A stretch of DNA of 64,000 bases. Source: Symploca sp. SIO2C1 (lineage in GTDB: Bacteria; Cyanobacteriota; Cyanobacteriia; Cyanobacteriales; Coleofasciculaceae). Both the position numbers and the translations under genes were made by a program. The DNA is taken from contig JAAHGL010000003.1 in assembly GCA_010692635.1 (NCBI GenBank), positions 1-64,000 of the forward strand, in the 5' to 3' direction. A model generated the notes under the pieces. That model saw nothing but the letters and a program-made list of their open reading frames with translations. It was not told where the DNA came from and made no database searches. This document shows, in pieces, positions 26,283-34,043 of the stretch. Positions within the stretch are counted from its first letter, which is position 1. Every line of letters begins with the position of its first letter.

Positions 26283-26588
26283 ATGAGTTTGGATTGCACG
26301 ATTTCAAAATCTTCAATTGTAGTAGTAACTAAAGAGCAAGTATCTTCAGAGCTCAATGGAGAAGCAGTAATACTTGATATGAAATCTGGTACTTACTATG
26401 GTCTAAATTCTATCGGTGCTAGTATCTGGAATTTGCTCCAGCAACCCAAAAGCGTCGCAGAAATTCGGGATTCTTTATTAGCAGAATATGAGGTTGAGCC
26501 AGAGCAATGCGATCGCGAACTGTTGGCACTACTCCAAGACCTAGGAACAAAAGGGTTAATTGAGATCAAAGATGAGACGGTTGCGTAA
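26283..26588 (+). CDS. PqqD-like RiPP recognition element (lasso B1-type)
   Basis: 101 residues, a complete stand-alone PqqD/RRE fold: an N-terminal beta hairpin (AVILDMKSGTYYGLNSIGASIWNLL is the family core around residues 28-52), then helices with EYEV...ELLALLQDLGTKGLIEI. Such proteins bind a leader peptide and deliver it to a modifying enzyme. The next gene overlaps it by 17 bases and encodes the B2 protease, so this pair is the usual lasso B1/B2 arrangement. It is the first gene of the RiPP cluster. Confidence 0.92.
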   Translation: MSLDCTISKSSIVVVTKEQVSSELNGEAVILDMKSGTYYGLNSIGASIWNLLQQPKSVAEIRDSLLAEYEVEPEQCDRELLALLQDLGTKGLIEIKDETVA

Positions 26589-27015
26589 ATTTATATACCT
26601 AAGTGCGAGCGAACGGCAACTTCTGATAAAAACTTTCGTCTTACTGGGATTCATTAGATTAGGGCTCTTGCTACTACCATTTCGTACCTTGCATCAGCAA
26701 CTAGTAAACATGAGTCAACCATACTCCACATCCCCAAAAGTTGCTACTTCTAGCATTGACGAAATTGTTTGGGCTGTAGATATTAGCACTCACTATACCC
26801 CTGGTGGTGCCAAATGTTTAGCTCGCGCTTTGACTACCCAGTTTCTGATGACTCGGCACGGTTACTCCCCGGAACTCTGCATCGGGGTTGCCAAAGGAGA
26901 AGCAGGAAAGCTTGAGGCTCATGCTTGGGTCAAAAGTCAAGGAGAAGTGGTAATTGGTCATTTAGGAAACCTTTCTCGCTTTACCTTACTTCCCTCTATA
27001 GAAAAGGGCAAGTAG
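26572..27015 (+). CDS. Lasso-type B2 leader peptidase (transglutaminase fold)
   Basis: 147 residues from the ATG (MRRLRKFIYL). N-terminal hydrophobic helix (about 20-38), then the transglutaminase-like catalytic part: CLARAL carries the Cys nucleophile (Cys82), and EAHAWVKSQGEVVIG carries the His (His117). I cannot assign the third catalytic residue with confidence. B2 enzymes cut the leader from a lasso precursor once B1 has bound it. The start overlaps the B1 gene by 17 bases (translational coupling). Four precursor genes follow 220 bases downstream. Confidence 0.92.
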   Translation: MRRLRKFIYLSASERQLLIKTFVLLGFIRLGLLLLPFRTLHQQLVNMSQPYSTSPKVATSSIDEIVWAVDISTHYTPGGAKCLARALTTQFLMTRHGYSPELCIGVAKGEAGKLEAHAWVKSQGEVVIGHLGNLSRFTLLPSIEKGK

Positions 27016-27150
27016 ATACCAAAGCCAGGTTAGATATTCTCTTGATCTAAAAAGAGCAAAGAGCAGGGAGAGTGTCGGGAGACACAGGGACACGGAAAGC
27101 AATTCCCAATTCCCAATTCCCAATTCCCAATTCCCAAAGAGTGTTATCTA

Positions 27151-27205
27151 CCTTTAAATTATGTGAATTTCTTATTTAAGCACTTATCTATGAGTGCATT
27201 CAGCT
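27151..27205 (+). repeat. Duplicated leader block (partner at 27651-27705)
   Basis: About 50 bases (aattatgtgaatttctt, then aagcacttatctatgagtgcattca) are repeated before the first and the second precursor gene. Within it gcactta...gagtgc can pair as a short hairpin. It marks the left edge of a duplicated unit containing leader, precursor gene and 3' hairpin. It probably acts in the 5' untranslated region. Confidence 0.7.
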
Positions 27206-27239
27206 GATGCTGAATTGTTGTTTACCTGGAGAATAAAAA

Positions 27240-27461
27240 ATGCTGAAGAGTTGGAATACCCCTCAATTGAGCGTTCAAGGTTCTGTTGAGCAACTAACCC
27301 AACAAGGTCCTGTGGATGTTTCCTCTGGTATGCCCCCTCGCGGTGGACGCGGTGGACGCGGTGGACGCGGTGGACGCGGTGGACGCGGTGGACGCGGTGG
27401 CCGTGGCGGTCGCGGTGGACGCGGTGGACGCGGTGGCCGTGGCGGCCGTGGTGCTCTCTAA
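27240..27461 (+). CDS. RiPP precursor 1: lasso-like leader, 12 Gly-Gly-Arg repeats
   Basis: 73 residues: leader MLKSWNTPQLSVQGSVEQLT (1-20), short core QQGPVDVSSGMPPR, then twelve perfect GGR repeats and a terminal GAL. The leader has the lasso pattern W/Y-x-x-P-x-L ... G ... L-T. It lacks four residues found in copies 2-4 before VDVSSGMPPR, so Asp sits only 4-5 residues from any plausible cleavage point and could not close a 7- to 9-residue lasso ring. Ribosome-binding site ggag 8 bases before the ATG. Codons within the GGR repeats vary between synonyms (ggtggacgc, ggtggccgt, ggcggtcgc). Confidence 0.88.
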   Translation: MLKSWNTPQLSVQGSVEQLTQQGPVDVSSGMPPRGGRGGRGGRGGRGGRGGRGGRGGRGGRGGRGGRGGRGAL

Positions 27462-27610
27462 GAAACATTGACGGAGAGTTAACCTCTCTCAACTAGTAGT
27501 TCGTCGTATTAGTTTTGAGAGCAATCTAAATCCAGAAAACCTATTCCTATGGTGATTTTGGGTATAGATGACCCCTGATAATTAATCCGACAGACTATTA
27601 GAACCACCTA

Positions 27611-27643
27611 AGGAGTGTACCTAGCTGCAACTAGGTACCTCCC
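27611..27643 (+). terminator. Hairpin after precursor 1
   Basis: ggag-tgtacctag (27612-27624) pairs with ctaggtac-ctcc (27631-27642) around a ctgcaa loop. No T-run follows, so it may be a terminator of the factor-independent type only weakly, or an RNA-stabilising structure. A near-copy after precursor 4 keeps the fold through a G-U pair. Confidence 0.55.
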
Positions 27644-27712
27644 CTAACTAACCTTAAATTATGTGAATTTCTTATTTAAGCACTTATCTATGAGTGCATT
27701 CAACCTGAGCTG

Positions 27713-27817
27713 ATACCAAATCCGCTTTACCAAGGGTCTATTAAAAAAAATCAAAGCCTTTGTCTGGAAAAGATTTGGTGATTTTGATAAGTACCCCACA
27801 ATAACCGGATTTGGTAT
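27713..27817. mobile_element. 105-bp miniature element with ATACCAAATCCG termini
   Basis: The ends ATACCAAATCCG and CGGATTTGGTAT are a perfect 12-base inverted repeat. The element interrupts the duplicated leader block, splitting sequence that is continuous before precursor 1 (gctgaattgttgtttac). TGA or TA flanks both sides, compatible with a short target duplication. It lies 28 bases before the start of precursor 2, so it is within the likely leader RNA of that gene. Confidence 0.88.
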
Positions 27818-27845
27818 GAATTGTTGTTTACTTGGAGAATCAAAA

Positions 27846-28052
27846 ATGTTGAAGACTTGGAATACCCCTGAATTGACTGTTCAAGGTTCTGTTGAGGAAC
27901 TAACCCAAGGTATTAACGCACGTCCTCCTGTGGATGTTTCCTCTGGTATGCCTCCTCGCGGTGGACGCGGTGGACGCGGTGGACGCGGTGGCCGTGGTGG
28001 CCGTGGTGGCCGTGGTGGACGCGGTGGCCGTGGCGGTCGCGGTGGACGCTAA
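27846..28052 (+). CDS. RiPP precursor 2: lasso-like leader, 10 Gly-Gly-Arg repeats
   Basis: 68 residues: leader to Thr20 (WNTPELTVQGSVEELT), then Gln21, core GINARPPVDVSSGMPPR and ten perfect GGR repeats. With cleavage after Gln21 the core begins with Gly1 and has Asp at position 9, exactly the spacing lasso rings use (7-9). I chose the ATG at the ggag site that copies 1, 3 and 4 share; an in-frame ATG ten codons upstream falls inside the miniature element's border. Confidence 0.9.
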   Translation: MLKTWNTPELTVQGSVEELTQGINARPPVDVSSGMPPRGGRGGRGGRGGRGGRGGRGGRGGRGGRGGR

Positions 28053-28126
28053 AAAACCTTTGCACAGAATTAATCTCTGTTAACTAGAAGCACTAACTCA
28101 ATTGTTATTTACTTGGAGAATCAAAA

Positions 28127-28330
28127 ATGTTGAAGACTTGGAATACCCCCGAATTGACTGTTCAAGGTTCTGTTGAGGAACTAACCCAAGGTATTAACGC
28201 ACGTCCTCCTGTGGATGTTTCCTCTGGTATGCCTCCTCGTGGCGGACGCGGTGGACGCGGCGGCCGTGGTGGACGCGGCGGTCGCGGTGGACGCGGTGGT
28301 CGTGGCGGACGCGGTGGTCGCCCTGAATAA
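28127..28330 (+). CDS. RiPP precursor 3: lasso-like leader, 9 Gly-Gly-Arg repeats
   Basis: 67 residues. Leader and core are identical in protein to copy 2 through SSGMPPR (Gly1 and Asp9 spacing kept), followed by nine GGR repeats and a terminal Pro-Glu. Ribosome-binding site ggag before the ATG is conserved. The repeats differ from copy 2 mainly at third codon positions, so the amino-acid repeat is under selection or is homogenised without nucleotide identity. Spacing to copies 2 and 4 is about 75 bases. Confidence 0.9.
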   Translation: MLKTWNTPELTVQGSVEELTQGINARPPVDVSSGMPPRGGRGGRGGRGGRGGRGGRGGRGGRGGRPE

Positions 28331-28405
28331 GAAACCTTGGTACAGAGTTAATCTGTGTGAACTAGAAGCACTAACTCAATTATTGTTTACTTGGAGAATA
28401 CAAAA

Positions 28406-28612
28406 ATGTTGAAGACTTGGAATACCCCCGAATTGACTGTTCAAGGTTCTGTTGAGGAACTAACCCAAGGTATTAACGCACGTCCTCCTGTGGATGTTTC
28501 CTCTGGTATGCCCCCTCGTGGTGGACGCGGTGGTCGTGGTGGTCGTGGTGGACGCGGTGGTCGTGGCGGTCGCGGTGGTCGCGGTGGTCGCGGTGGCCGT
28601 GGTGGACGCTAA
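28406..28612 (+). CDS. RiPP precursor 4: lasso-like leader, 10 Gly-Gly-Arg repeats
   Basis: 68 residues with the same leader and GINARPPVDVSSGMPPR core as copies 2 and 3 and ten GGR repeats ending in Arg. The ATG follows the shared ggag site; a TTG-initiated extension five codons upstream is possible but would put the ribosome-binding site inside the gene. The stop is followed by the same 3' block (aaaaaacctttg...) as the other copies, then by the hairpin at 28762-28795. Confidence 0.9.
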   Translation: MLKTWNTPELTVQGSVEELTQGINARPPVDVSSGMPPRGGRGGRGGRGGRGGRGGRGGRGGRGGRGGR

Positions 28613-28761
28613 AAAACCTTTGCTCAGAGTTAATCTCCTCGAACTGGTGGTTATTACGGCATAAGTTTTGACAGTAATCTAAATCTAGAAAACCTATCGC
28701 TATGGTGATTGTAGATATAGATAAGCCCTAATAATTAACCCAACAGACTACCGGAACCACC

Positions 28762-28795
28762 TAAGGAGTGTACCTAGCTGCAACTGGGTACCTCC
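28762..28795 (+). terminator. Hairpin after precursor 4, copy of 27611-27643
   Basis: Same structure: ggag-tgtacctag and ctgggtac-ctcc around ctgcaa. One base differs from the first copy (a to g), and that position can still pair with U, which suggests the RNA fold is maintained. The duplicated 3' block begins near 28677. Confidence 0.55.
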
Positions 28796-28926
28796 CTTAA
28801 CTACTCATTATACCTTTTCTTTGTGAAGTAGGTAGGCATAAAAGTGATTTGGGAGAGGTTGAAATCCTCTTCCTCACTCACTATTGCCTATTGCTTATTG
28901 CCTTTGAACGTTATAGAGAATCAAAA

Positions 28927-29838
28927 GTGTTTTCCTATTTTGCTTATGGTTTAGGTATTCAATCTGAATTACCCATACCAGAATTTATTCCCGCACAAGT
29001 AGAGTGTGATGTTACTCTCTACTTCGAGAAAGACTCCACACTTAGTGACTATCTACTAGAAGATGAGATTGAAGAGCCTTGGTCTTTTGACATAACTCGT
29101 GAGGAGGCATTTCTCTACATTAAAGATATCGGTGTTTTTATTGTCGAAGAAGGCGATACTATTACAGTTGTTCCAGCCCCCGGTGTTTCCGAACAACACC
29201 TAAGATTACATCTGGTGGGAAATATTATGTCCATTGTCCTCTATCAGCGAGGGCTATTGGCACTCCATGCTAGTGTAGTTAAGATTAATGGAGGAGCTGT
29301 TGCCTTCCTCGGAGAATCAGGTCAAGGGAAATCTTCCACTGCGGCTGCGTTCCATAGACATGGATACACCATTATTACTGATGATGTTGCCCCTGTAACC
29401 TTAGAGGAAAAACCAGTTACCATCACCCCTGGATTTCCTCAGATTAAAATGGGTCGAGAAACCGCTGCTATTTTGGGGTGTGATTTTGACTCTCTGCACA
29501 TACTACACCCCTCCCATCCAAAACGAGGTTATCGCCTAACCGGAGACTTTCCTCAAACCCCTCTACCAATCCGGGGTATTTATGTACTTGCCTATGATGA
29601 GGAGTTTGGGGTTGAACCATTAACACATCAGGAAGCGGTGATTGAACTTTCCCGTTATGCTCATCCTGAGTGCTTATTTTACTCAAGAGACCCTGCCCAC
29701 TTTCTCCAGTGCGCAGCTCTAGCTAAAGAATGTACTATCTATCGCCTCAAAAGGCCCCGGAATCTGAGTTTATTGCCTGAATTAGTTAAACAGGTGGAAC
29801 AACACCTCAGCAACAATCTACAACCGGTAACAGTTTGA
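28927..29838 (+). CDS. HPr-kinase-like kinase of the RiPP cluster
   Basis: 303 residues from a GTG (VFSYFAYGLGIQ). A variable N-terminal domain (about 1-105) precedes a HprK-type kinase core: Walker A GESGQGKSS (residues 129-137), ITDDVAPV with the acidic pair at 152-153, and a nucleotide-binding LHASVV before it. Related kinases in paeninodin- and pseudomycoidin-type lasso clusters phosphorylate the peptide. Candidate targets here are the core Ser-Ser in VDVSSG. The frame is open for 26 codons upstream, but that part is a low-complexity intergenic repeat (ctattgc units), so I reject it. Confidence 0.87.
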   Translation: MFSYFAYGLGIQSELPIPEFIPAQVECDVTLYFEKDSTLSDYLLEDEIEEPWSFDITREEAFLYIKDIGVFIVEEGDTITVVPAPGVSEQHLRLHLVGNIMSIVLYQRGLLALHASVVKINGGAVAFLGESGQGKSSTAAAFHRHGYTIITDDVAPVTLEEKPVTITPGFPQIKMGRETAAILGCDFDSLHILHPSHPKRGYRLTGDFPQTPLPIRGIYVLAYDEEFGVEPLTHQEAVIELSRYAHPECLFYSRDPAHFLQCAALAKECTIYRLKRPRNLSLLPELVKQVEQHLSNNLQPVTV

Positions 29839-29857
29839 TACCGAAATTCTAACTTTC

Positions 29858-30856
29858 ATGAAGATTAGTCACCGTCTTGTTTCACAGAGCAAGTCAGTTA
29901 GTGCAGTTCTCCTGTTCGGAGGGTTAGTCTATCTTATCGTTCATTGGCTCCAAAGTTGGTTATTGCCAATTTGGATAGATTTGCCAGTCTTAGAAGGATT
30001 GAAGACAACTTACCGTGGCAGATTAATTTGGATTACCTTTTATCAAATCATTTTTGATGTTTTTCTGAATCCTTACTTTTATCTGCCAGTGATTGGGATA
30101 TTTTATCTGGAATTAATTATCCCAGCCAAAAAGGAGCAAAAAGTGTTCTCTGTAGGAATGCTTCAAGATTTCATTTGGTTTATTGCCGATATTGTCTTCT
30201 TCACTATCGTAATTTCACCTTATATTCTCTGGATAAGATTTATTTGCGATCAATACCTTGGCTTCCTCAAGATCGATGCTCTAACTAACTTAACTTACCC
30301 TCTACCATTGATTATTGCTATATTTGCCAGTGATTTTTTAATTTGGTTGAGTCACTTGGTGCGACATAAAGTGAAATATTTATGGTATTTTCACTCAGTA
30401 CATCATTCTCAAACAGAACTCAATCTCTTTACTGACCTCAGGTTTCATACTATTGATACTTTAATAGCAATAACAACGGCAATTATTCCCCTACAATTAC
30501 TGCAAATTGCTACACCGACAACGATTTATTACTTATTTATTCAGAAATGGTACTTGAGACTTTATCATGCTAACATTAAAAGTAATTATGGATTTTTAAA
30601 ATATCTCCTGGTTACTCCCCAGTCTCATCGTGTTCACCATTCCTTTGAAGCGAAACACTGTGATAAAAACTTTGGGACTATCTTCAGCATTTGGGATTAT
30701 CTATTTAAAACACAGTACAAACAATACAACGAATATCCTGATACTGGCATCAATGAACCTAGATTTCCGTTAGAGAAAAGTTCCAAACTACCCAGTTTGC
30801 TTAAGACGTACTGGTTACAGTTCATATATCCCTTTCAGTCAATTGTAGGTAAATAA
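29858..30856 (+). CDS. Fatty-acid hydroxylase/sterol desaturase-fold membrane enzyme
   Basis: 332 residues with several hydrophobic spans in the N-terminal 150 residues and the family's histidine cluster: HLVRH, then HSVHH (near residue 185), and HRVHH (near 265), giving the di-iron ligand set HxxxH, HxxHH, HxxHH. The family hydroxylates or desaturates lipids and related substrates using oxygen. It lies 19 bases after the kinase gene and is therefore very probably part of the RiPP operon; a lipid-like or peptide side-chain modification would be new for such clusters. Role here is inferred. Confidence 0.88.
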   Translation: MKISHRLVSQSKSVSAVLLFGGLVYLIVHWLQSWLLPIWIDLPVLEGLKTTYRGRLIWITFYQIIFDVFLNPYFYLPVIGIFYLELIIPAKKEQKVFSVGMLQDFIWFIADIVFFTIVISPYILWIRFICDQYLGFLKIDALTNLTYPLPLIIAIFASDFLIWLSHLVRHKVKYLWYFHSVHHSQTELNLFTDLRFHTIDTLIAITTAIIPLQLLQIATPTTIYYLFIQKWYLRLYHANIKSNYGFLKYLLVTPQSHRVHHSFEAKHCDKNFGTIFSIWDYLFKTQYKQYNEYPDTGINEPRFPLEKSSKLPSLLKTYWLQFIYPFQSIVGK

Positions 30857-30997
30857 AATAACTTGTTGTTTGGGAATTGAGAATTAGGTGTTAGGTGTTT
30901 CCTCTATCTCTCCCAGCTCCCCTAACTCCGGCAGCTTCTCCAGCTCCCTACTTAACTGATTTCAAATTTTAATTATTTTTCTAGGTAAATTGCAACT

Positions 30998-32815
30998 ATG
31001 CCGGTAGGCAAAATCTTAAACATTAAACTAAAAGAAAGCTTACGTTTTTTGCCAGCTTTGCGCCTTGTTTGGCAAAGTGCTCCTGCTTGGACGATGGCGC
31101 GTGTCGTGCTCTTAATTATTCAGGGGGTTTTGCCCTTAGGAGCTCTGTATTTAACTAAACTTTTAGTAGATACAATAACCGATAGCTTCACCATTGCTGA
31201 TAAAACAATTGTTATCCGTGAAGTTACGCTTCTCGTTGTCCTTGCAGGTGGAGTTGTCCTGTTAACTACCCTATCTACCTCCCTGTCAGATCTCGTAAGT
31301 ACTGCCCAATCCCAACGAGTTACTGATTATATGCAGGGTATTGTCCAAGCTAAATCTATTGAAGTAGACCTAGAGTACTACGAAGATTCTAAATACCATG
31401 ATACCTTGCAACGGGCTCAAGAAGAAGCCCCTTTTCGACCTACCCAAATCCTGGAGCGCTTAGCACAACTTGCTCAGAATACCATTTCTTTGGTAGTAAT
31501 GGTTGGTTTACTACTCTCACTCCACTGGGGAATTGCTGGGATTTTATTTGTAGGTGCCATTCCCGCTGTATTGGTGCGGATTAAATATGCTGAAATCACC
31601 TATCATTGGGAACGTGAGCGAACAGAACTAGGGCGCAAAGCCGGGTACTTTGATTGGCTAATCACTGACAGTAGCATTGCCAAAGAAATCCGTTTGTTTA
31701 ATTTAGGGTCTTTGTTCAGTCAAAGGTTTCGCCAGCTACGAGAGCAACTCTATCAAGAAAAATTAAAAATCCACACTAAGCTCTTTTTTACTTACTTAAC
31801 AGCACAAGCATTAGCAGGAATTTTATTGTTTGCTGCCTATGGCTTTATCATCTATCAAACTATCCAAGGAACCCTCCGTCTAGGAGACTTAGTACTTTAC
31901 CACCAAGCATTGCAACGGGGACAGAATGCCCTCAAAGGATTCTTAGCCGACTTATCTGGACTCTATGAAGATAACTTATTTTTGGCAGACCTCTACGAAT
32001 TCCTGGAACTCAAACCCAAAATCATTGATCCTCAATATCCTAAACCCATTCCCCAACCGATGCAAACTGGCATTGTTTTTAACAATGTGAGTTTCCAATA
32101 TAGTGGCACTACTCGCCAAGCTCTTAAGGATATCAACTTTACCATTCGACCTAGAGAAACTATTGCCTTAGTGGGAGAAAATGGTTCCGGTAAAACCACA
32201 CTTATCAAACTTCTCTGCCGCTTATACAGTCCCACTAGTGGGAGTATTACTATGGATGGCATTGATGTAGGGGAATTTGAAATTGCTGCCCTACGCCGCC
32301 AAATCAGTGTCATTTTCCAAGACTATGTCCAGTACGATCTCAGTGCTCAAGACAATATTTGGTTAGGCAATATTGATCTACCACCAACCAATGAAAGCAT
32401 CGCTGCCGCTGCCAGTCGTTCAGGTGCCGATGCAGTGATTAATAGTTTACCTCAAGGGTATGACACTATTCTTGGCACCTGGTTTGAAGATGGGGAAGAA
32501 CTAAGTATAGGTCAATGGCAAAAAGTTGCTCTAGCAAGGGCATTTTTAAGAGACTCCCAGCTCATTGTCTTAGACGAACCTACCAGTGCTATGGATCCTA
32601 AGGCAGAATACGAGGTTTTTAATCAATTTCGCCAACTGATCAAAGACCAAGCTGCTATCCTCATTACCCATCGTTTATCTACTGTCAAAATGGCTGATCG
32701 CATCTATGTAATGGATAAGGGCACAATTGTTGAAAACGGTACCCATGAGGAACTCATGCAACTTGGAGGTACCTATGCCCATTTGTTTGAAATTCAAGCA
32801 AAAAATTACCGTTAA
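30998..32815 (+). CDS. ABC exporter, fused membrane and ATP-binding domains
   Basis: 605 residues: a six-helix membrane domain (about 20-330) and a complete nucleotide-binding domain with Walker A GENGSGKTT, signature LSIGQWQKVALA, and Walker B LIVLDEPTSAMDP. No peptidase C39 domain, so it exports an already-cut peptide, in line with the separate B2 protease. Lasso clusters carry the same kind of D-type exporter. Its stop codon lies in a heptamer array that separates it from the last cluster gene. Confidence 0.93.
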   Translation: MPVGKILNIKLKESLRFLPALRLVWQSAPAWTMARVVLLIIQGVLPLGALYLTKLLVDTITDSFTIADKTIVIREVTLLVVLAGGVVLLTTLSTSLSDLVSTAQSQRVTDYMQGIVQAKSIEVDLEYYEDSKYHDTLQRAQEEAPFRPTQILERLAQLAQNTISLVVMVGLLLSLHWGIAGILFVGAIPAVLVRIKYAEITYHWERERTELGRKAGYFDWLITDSSIAKEIRLFNLGSLFSQRFRQLREQLYQEKLKIHTKLFFTYLTAQALAGILLFAAYGFIIYQTIQGTLRLGDLVLYHQALQRGQNALKGFLADLSGLYEDNLFLADLYEFLELKPKIIDPQYPKPIPQPMQTGIVFNNVSFQYSGTTRQALKDINFTIRPRETIALVGENGSGKTTLIKLLCRLYSPTSGSITMDGIDVGEFEIAALRRQISVIFQDYVQYDLSAQDNIWLGNIDLPPTNESIAAAASRSGADAVINSLPQGYDTILGTWFEDGEELSIGQWQKVALARAFLRDSQLIVLDEPTSAMDPKAEYEVFNQFRQLIKDQAAILITHRLSTVKMADRIYVMDKGTIVENGTHEELMQLGGTYAHLFEIQAKNYR

Positions 32816-32903
32816 TGGCTAATGGCTAATGGCTAATGGTTAATGGCTAATGGCTAATGGCTAATGGCTAATGGCTAATGGCTAATGGCTAATGGCTAAT
32901 AGC
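32813..32903. repeat. Thirteen tandem heptamers (taatggc)
   Basis: Units of taatggc run from the transporter's stop codon for about 91 bases; unit 4 is taatggt and unit 13 taatagc. Such heptamer arrays are frequent in filamentous cyanobacteria and have no known function. A shorter array of the same unit lies at 38519-38552. Confidence 0.92.
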
Positions 32904-32945
32904 TAACATCTAACACCTAACACCTAACATCAATGACTAACATCA

Positions 32946-34043
32946 ATGACTAACCTATCCCATACCCTAATTCGTACCGCTCTGAAAACGCCTGACTCTG
33001 ATTGGATTAACCAAGTTCAACATCAGCTTAGTTGTGCCACTGAGTTGGAGTGGGAAGATAGCTTAGACACCCTAGCTCTGCACCGGTTGCTTCCACTAGT
33101 ATTCTATACCCTAGAAGCTCAAGGTCTTAGCAAAAGTGTACCCCAGCCTTATTTAGATGAGATTCAGACCGCCTATAACAAAACACGGGCTCAGAATACC
33201 ATCTTATTGCTCACCTTAGATGGCATCCTTCAGGCAATGCAAGAGCGTAATCTGCACCCCGTAATCTGGAAAGGCATAGCACTAGCGGATAGTTTCTATC
33301 CCGATCCTGGAACACGACTAATGGCAGATATCGATTTTGCCATACCAGGAGATGAAATGGAGGAGGCAACCGAAGTTTTCAGATCCTTGGGATTGTTGCC
33401 GCAACCTCAAGTCGAAACACCTAACGCAGTATACTTTGCTAATCCAATGGGGGTTATGTGCGATGTTCACCATCGTGTTGAGCTGTTTGAAGGCAAAGAG
33501 TCAATGAACCTCATTACCAACCTCAAACCACAGCACCTTAAAACATCAGCTTTGCCTGTACTGGAACCCAATGCTATGTTAGTTCATCTAACCGTCCACA
33601 TGGATGAGCATCGTAACGAAACTGGTCCTCTGCTATTTTGGATTTTTGATATAGCTTTTGTACTCCGCAAATGGGGTGCTTTGCTCGAACCTGAGCAACT
33701 TGAGAAACTAATGCCAGCCAAAGAGCATTTCGTTTCTCTGTTTCGCACCATCCGTTTCCTAGAAAAGGAGTTCGGCGAAAAGACACCGGAATGCTTAGCT
33801 GAAGTTGTAAAGAGTTTTGAACCATTTACGATCGAAGAGGTTCTCCGGCAGCGAAGATTAGCAATGTGGGGTTTACCCTGCCCTCGTGGATGGCTGCGAC
33901 TGGGTGCAAGCCAATTAGGCTTCGAGCTACCTGATAGTCGTCCTGATCTGCCTGTAAGAGATTTAATCCTGTGGTTTACAGACGCTATAAGAAGTCAAGG
34001 AGCAAGTTTGAAACCAATCCCCAAATTATCGGTAAAAGCTTAG
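32946..34043 (+). CDS. NTP_transf_5-family nucleotidyltransferase of the RiPP cluster
   Basis: 365 residues. The core reads VIWKGIALADSF...GTRLMADIDFAIP (about 100-135), which carries the Asp pair of the nucleotidyltransferase fold (PF14907-like). Related genes accompany kinases in paeninodin/pseudomycoidin-type lasso clusters, where they modify the phosphorylated peptide. The start codon lies after a 13-base tandem duplication (catcaatgactaa), which gives a second ATG 13 bases upstream in another frame that stops at once. Last gene of the cluster by function. Confidence 0.87.
   Translation: MTNLSHTLIRTALKTPDSDWINQVQHQLSCATELEWEDSLDTLALHRLLPLVFYTLEAQGLSKSVPQPYLDEIQTAYNKTRAQNTILLLTLDGILQAMQERNLHPVIWKGIALADSFYPDPGTRLMADIDFAIPGDEMEEATEVFRSLGLLPQPQVETPNAVYFANPMGVMCDVHHRVELFEGKESMNLITNLKPQHLKTSALPVLEPNAMLVHLTVHMDEHRNETGPLLFWIFDIAFVLRKWGALLEPEQLEKLMPAKEHFVSLFRTIRFLEKEFGEKTPECLAEVVKSFEPFTIEEVLRQRRLAMWGLPCPRGWLRLGASQLGFELPDSRPDLPVRDLILWFTDAIRSQGASLKPIPKLSVKA

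Follow-up and report, generated by a model that had tools for sequence, protein, structure and literature searches.

Linear polyphosphorylated peptides (LPP) of Bacillota, reported in 2026, are a precedent for linear phosphorylated lasso-like peptides made without a cyclase; the lppAKBSDN cluster of Paenibacillus alginolyticus encodes a PqqD-like RiPP recognition element (RRE), an HprK-like kinase, an MsbA-like exporter, an NTP transferase and the SpI-type signal peptidase LppS, its leader follows the pattern YxxPxVLxHQxIxFETxxS, and its linear product is phosphorylated at Ser3 (PMC13381572). Lasso clusters of the paeninodin/pseudomycoidin type (PadeK, PsmK, PsmN) combine B1, B2, a precursor, an HprK-like kinase, an exporter and a nucleotidyltransferase-like gene with a cyclase C (PMC9266682). 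We took a lasso cluster to have a discrete RRE, B1, with a WxxP or YxxP leader, a transglutaminase-fold B2 with Thr at leader position -2, and an asparagine-synthetase-like macrolactam cyclase C, with an Asp or Glu acceptor among core residues 7-9 and a threaded lariat as product. About half of the proteins from the discrete lasso RRE model of RRE-Finder lack peptidase and cyclase partners (PMC7470986).

Here we analyzed a window of 64,000 nucleotides from the marine cyanobacterium Symploca sp. SIO2C1. Like LPP, its RiPP cluster has a PqqD-like RRE, a leader of the [Y/W]xxP kind, an HprK-like kinase, an MsbA-like exporter, an NTP transferase and no macrolactam cyclase. It differs in using lasso B2 as the leader peptidase (no SpI-type LppS gene was found in the cluster), in having WxxP-type leaders (WNTPELTVQGSVEELTQ) that do not match the LPP leader motif, in a B1 nearer to PbaB1 than to LppB, in a core of Gly/Arg repeats, and in offering the Ser-Ser pair of a DVSSG block as its candidate phosphosite; its product is only predicted to be linear. 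The cluster thus works like LPP, but its B2 and its different leader keep it outside that family, and without a cyclase it does not fit the definition of a lasso cluster. The first-pass annotation had compared it with the paeninodin/pseudomycoidin type; the shared gene content was right, but LPP is nearer in logic (PMC13381572), and the window differs from that type in lacking cyclase C and the C-terminal Ser and in carrying a long Gly/Arg tail. With a probability of about 0.72, we read the locus as a cyanobacterial-type lasso cluster (B1-B2-C-A-kinase-exporter-NTP_transf_5) that lost its cyclase within the genus and now makes linear peptides.

Gene content of the cluster

The source genome is a draft of 8.17 Mb in 470 contigs (95.95% complete) and the window lies on a 78-kb contig; the closest named relative is a congener, Symploca sp. 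SIO2E6 (G002). From 26283 to 34043, B1, B2, four precursors, an HprK-like kinase, a FA_hydroxylase-fold protein, an MsbA-like exporter and an NTP_transf_5 protein are all encoded on the + strand (Table 1). ORF, Pfam and NCBIfam checks (cut-offs of 80 bits for lasso_PqqD_Bac and 33 bits for lasso_biosyn_B2) recovered every gene previously annotated, in place and on one strand, with all ORFs intact.

Table 1. Features of the cyclase-less cluster in the Symploca sp. SIO2C1 window
Feature	Coordinates	Strand	Evidence
B1, PqqD-like RiPP recognition element (leader-binding)	26283..26588	+	Pfam PqqD 1.4e-21; NCBIfam lasso_PqqD_Bac 80.1 bits
B2, transglutaminase-fold leader peptidase (C96)	26575..27015	+	lasso_biosyn_B2 116 bits, E 1.2e-33
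Precursor A1	27240..27461	+	translation; lasso_cyano leader match E 0.00046
Precursor A2	27846..28052	+	translation; lasso_leader_L3 at cut-off
Precursor A3	28127..28330	+	translation; lasso_leader_L3 at cut-off
Precursor A4	28406..28612	+	translation; lasso_leader_L3 at cut-off
HprK/PEPCK-fold kinase, cyanobacterial lasso-cluster type	28927..29838	+	54-63% identity to lasso-cluster kinases
Fatty-acid-hydroxylase-superfamily (di-iron) membrane protein; accessory, genome-specific operon insertion	29858..30856	+	Pfam FA_hydroxylase 3e-24
MsbA-like ABC exporter	30998..32815	+	ABC_tran 1.5e-33
NTP_transf_5 nucleotidyltransferase-like protein, PsmN/LppN type by Pfam family	32946..34043	+	Pfam NTP_transf_5 1.8e-39

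The only Rfam matches in the window were two tRNAs, and a plasmid collection gave no DNA match to it. Several repeats lie between the genes. Short tandem repeats at 27100-27140 (cccaattc...) and 32815-32935 (taatggctaatggc...) are of kinds frequent elsewhere in the genomes of the genus. A repeat of about 105 bp with inverted ends (ACCAAATC...GATTTGGT) at 27713-27817, directly upstream of A2, has dozens of near-identical copies in the source genome and a MITE-like look. The inverted repeat GTACCTAGCTGCAACTAGGTAC follows A1 (27617-27638) and, slightly altered, A4 (about 28768-28790); the same type occurs downstream of the SIO2E6 precursors (L171), and it may be a terminator or a processing hairpin that raises precursor expression.

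Absence of a lasso cyclase

In the lasso clusters of relatives the cyclase directly follows B2. Here the sequence from the end of B2 (27015) to the start of A1 (27240) is contiguous and the cyclase slot is empty, as it is at the same B2-to-precursor junction, also contiguous, of SIO2E6. No Ns occur between 26000 and 34200, and a tblastn search of the window for a cyclase or its remnant, including the B2-A1 gap, returned chance matches only (best E 0.5), in line with the earlier observation that the window has no cyclase.

To search beyond the window, we built a profile from 11 cyclases adjoining B1/B2 in relatives (alignment A1) and ran it against seven genomes. In G010, G055 and G019, true lasso cyclases reached 1003-1255 bits. 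The best hits were 185 bits in the source genome (an asparagine synthetase), 214 in SIO2E6 and 216 in UBA8803 (G011), values typical of ordinary asparagine synthetases. Of the 10 Asn_synthase matches in the source genome (96% complete), not one is a lasso cyclase, and the profile found none in SIO2E6; both Symploca genomes are drafts of about 96% completeness. The macrolact_Ik_Al model (NF033561) was uninformative, as it matched most control genomes weakly.

The core might still be cyclized in trans by an asparagine-synthetase-like enzyme encoded elsewhere or on an unassembled gene, and the missing 4% of the genome leaves room for the latter. Ten Asn_synthase matches are available, of which C401 and C428, on inspection, do not have the N-terminal Cys that true asparagine synthetases carry, and the Gly1/Asp9 spacing of A2-A4 suits cyclization. 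However, genome-wide searches by Asn_synthase family and by cyclase profile gave only generic or unrelated synthetases; no lasso genes lie near the C401 gene, and similar proteins of 570-582 aa score alike in other genomes, including the B2-less G001. The acceptor position varies across precursors (5, 7 or 9), A1 having none at 7-9, and SIO2E6 independently lacks a cyclase gene. We consider this explanation improbable. A distant cyclase, which the first-pass annotation had allowed for, was thus found in neither Symploca genome, and the source genome has a single B2; the conserved absence that it proposed to look for in homologous clusters does extend to SIO2E6.

Leader recognition and cleavage

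The closest PDB match of B1 is PbaB1 (9x90, 4.5e-15), followed by TbiB1 (5v1u); the match to LppB (9x8z) is weaker (4.1e-06). PbaB1 is an RRE from a paeninodin-like cluster and is specific for WxxP; the residue that contacts the leader aromatic is Q79 in PbaB1 and D70 in LppB (PMC13381572). Carried onto cyanobacterial B1 proteins by our own alignment, this position is Asp at 52 of 52 loci with YxxP leaders; at the 11 loci with WxxP leaders it is Glu in eight, Gly in two and Asp in one. The window has Glu at this position and a WNTP leader, so the B1-leader pair looks matched. From these residue patterns, Asp/Glu is likely a specificity switch for Tyr and Trp leaders in cyanobacteria, which would extend the 2026 specificity model to this phylum.

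The start of B2 overlaps the end of B1, and its Cys81 and His116 are invariant (alignment A2). Its profile found no solved relative in the PDB. VEELTQ precedes the predicted core, placing the conserved Thr at leader position -2.

Precursors and their Gly-Gly-Arg tails

A1 has the leader MLKSWNTPQLSVQGSVEQLTQ and the predicted core QGPVDVSSGMPPR(GGR)12GAL; A2 has the leader MLKTWNTPELTVQGSVEELTQ and the predicted core GINARPPVDVSSGMPPR(GGR)10. The A3 leader is that of A2, with a predicted core of GINARPPVDVSSGMPPR(GGR)9PE, and A4 is identical to A2 in both parts. All four match lasso_cyano weakly, under its cut-off, and A2-A4 also match lasso_leader_L3 at its cut-off, in each case over the leader region only. 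The 41 uninterrupted GGR units comprise seven nucleotide variants that differ only at codon position 3, which marks the tails as real coding sequence.

In SIO2E6 the precursors read TQ followed by a core of GYRGG(G/R)DVSSG(M/L) and GGRRGG-type repeats; the repeat unit is thus 18 bp, versus 9 bp for GGR in the source genome, and the tails are alike in composition. Among 391 genomes of the order the core is common to these two only. Other precursor matches end at the leader, and those inspected mostly lie beside a cyclase.

Ring geometry was compared across loci with kinship ignored: Asp or Glu occupies core positions 7-9, mostly 9, in 82 of the 91 precursors detected at cyclase-bearing loci, against 3 of 20 at cyclase-less loci. 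The Asp of the DVSSG block is at position 9 in A2-A4, 5 in A1 and 7 in SIO2E6. Gly1 with Asp9 in A2-A4, and with Asp7 in SIO2E6, fits a lasso ring and speaks against a linear product, so that judged by sequence a lasso is formally possible for A2-A4; a kept DVSSG block with variable ring spacing fits a relaxed ring constraint.

Conservation in SIO2E6 and selection

The SIO2E6 genes are spread over three contigs: B1-B2-A on one, A-A-HprK-ABC on another and NTP_transf_5 at the edge of a third. Codon comparison of the two genomes gave dN/dS of 0.14 for B1, 0.16 for B2, 0.22 for HprK and 0.11 for the ABC exporter, so purifying selection has acted on these genes in the absence of a cyclase from either genome, and the codons of the Gly/Arg tail show such selection as well. 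The cluster is real and under selection. The B2 tree joins the window to SIO2E6 with 100% support; between a single cyclase loss shared with Nostocaceae and a separate one, the AU test did not discriminate (p 0.41).

These data bear on whether the locus is simply decaying, its cyclase recently lost and no product made. The missing cyclase, the 105-bp element upstream of A2 and the richness of the precursor copies in simple repeats would suit decay, yet B1, B2, kinase and exporter have stayed under purifying selection after divergence from the likewise cyclase-less SIO2E6, the GGR units conserve codon positions 1 and 2, no ORF is broken, and the precursors have multiplied with tail composition kept in both genomes. 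We regard decay as very unlikely. The absence in SIO2E6 and the purifying selection instead support the lasso-derived, cyclase-free pathway first suggested for the locus.

Kinase, exporter and accessory genes

The most probable start of the kinase is GTG 28927, as supported by alignment, although the longest ORF begins at TTG 28849. Its Hpr_kinase_C match is sub-threshold (3e-06), and its profile matches HprK in the PDB (3.3e-06). The predicted structure matches HprK/PEPCK folds at low confidence (pLDDT 58.6) and lends weak fold support only. The similarity tabulated above is to kinases beside cyanobacterial lasso cyclases, and GxSGxGKS, DD and His are kept, the P-loop reading GESGQGKSS. These kept residues make phosphorylation, as originally proposed, plausible; against it, the precursors lack the C-terminal Ser that is the usual substrate of lasso kinases, so any phosphosite would need to lie in the DVSSG block. 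The exporter is 95% identical to the SIO2E6 protein and has counterparts of 64-70% identity in many lasso loci; the SIO2E6 copy of NTP_transf_5 is 86% identical.

The FA_hydroxylase gene begins 20 bp after the kinase gene, on the same strand and ahead of the exporter. As an integral tailoring enzyme it would yield a hydroxylated or lipid-linked peptide, and in Calothrix a homologue of 44% identity is found at a distance of about 9 kb from a lasso cluster. Enzymes of this Pfam family, however, act mostly on lipids, and SIO2E6 has no such gene between kinase and exporter, so we do not count it as core. Homologues at E <= 1e-40 occur in 3 of 391 genomes of the order; the two besides the source (G017, G020) carry them on contigs separate from their lasso clusters. 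Absence from the congener operon and this rarity rule it out as a core enzyme, and an integral tailoring role is improbable. Of the earlier suggestion of a perhaps oxidized product, the gene itself stands, with little support for the modification.

Other cyclase-less clusters in cyanobacteria

Lasso clusters of Moorena, Symploca SIO3C6/SIO2E9 and Nostoc (L098, L101, L115 and others) have orthologous B1, B2, kinase and exporter and the same leader type as the window; unlike it, they have a cyclase of 630-675 aa right after B2 and Asp or Glu at core positions 7-9. In a phylum sample of 386 genomes, 31 had B2 and 18 of these a strong cyclase match. Among the other 13, several had a divergent cyclase in the flanks; none was nearby for the window, the Nostocaceae glycosyltransferase clusters and one lone B1-B2 pair.

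The cyclase-less Nostocaceae clusters (L107, L108, L102, L095, L096, L113, L120, L135, L126, L214 and L215) resemble the window in B1, B2, HprK, exporter, NTP_transf_5 and lasso-like leaders, but also encode glycosyltransferases of the GT4 and GT2 types and, in most cases, an epimerase. Their order is B1, GT4, precursors (leaders ending in ...SGLTQ, cores beginning QVGGSGGFGTTT...), HprK, GT2, usually the epimerase, B2, exporter and NTP_transf_5, and their cores, such as QVGGSGGFGTTTGFP, have neither an acceptor nor a Gly/Arg tail. The lack of an Asp/Glu acceptor suggests linear, glycosylated and perhaps phosphorylated RiPPs.

Two further layouts were seen. Cyanobacteria bacterium UBA8803 (L133 / L057) has a compact cluster of B1, B2, two precursors, HprK and NTP_transf_5 with no cyclase and predicted cores of 9 and 11 residues (VPSGVVVPI and VPSGVPTTEVP). 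In Nostoc sp. UCD121 (L094), B1/B2-type genes have two ATP-grasp-like proteins as neighbours, one of which carries a fused PqqD domain, along with an HprK-like protein and long charged precursors; the stretch examined contains no lasso cyclase, and this is possibly another hybrid RiPP type. The literature covered by our searches contained no report of cyanobacterial B1/B2 clusters without a cyclase.

Proposed pathway and implications

By analogy with PadeK/PsmK/PsmN (PMC9266682) and LppK (PMC13381572), we infer phosphorylation, decoration, B2 cleavage and export as follows. B1 would bind the precursor leader at its WNTPxL motif, a Ser in the DVSSG(M/L) block would receive a phosphate from the HprK-like kinase, and the NTP_transf_5 protein may decorate this group. 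B2, assisted by B1, would cleave after Thr-Gln, and the ABC exporter would release a linear peptide of 46-52 residues with 11-13 Arg and a net charge of +9 to +12. The products are thus probably leader-cleaved, linear, cationic and phosphorylated, with a presumed biological role; lasso parts have apparently been repurposed to cut and export straight, highly cationic Gly-Gly-Arg repeat peptides.

More broadly, and with somewhat better than even odds, the window may be the polycationic Gly-Arg-repeat branch of a cyanobacterial linear RiPP class in which the lasso RRE/B2 pair serves as a stand-alone leader-removal module; a kinase, a nucleotidyltransferase and an exporter would accompany it, and tailoring enzymes, such as the glycosyltransferases of Nostocaceae, would be optional. 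Current annotation takes B2 peptidases to be lasso-specific, and mining tools treat cyclase-less B1/B2 pairs as false positives or broken clusters; the operon of the two congeners and the Nostocaceae set suggest instead that B1/B2 is a reusable leader-cleavage module. Cyclase-less cyanobacterial clusters also suggest that lasso peptides have linear relatives beyond Bacillota, and the natural uncoupling of B2 cleavage from cyclization becomes directly testable. The finding suggests that lasso machinery can stay under selection without making lassos.
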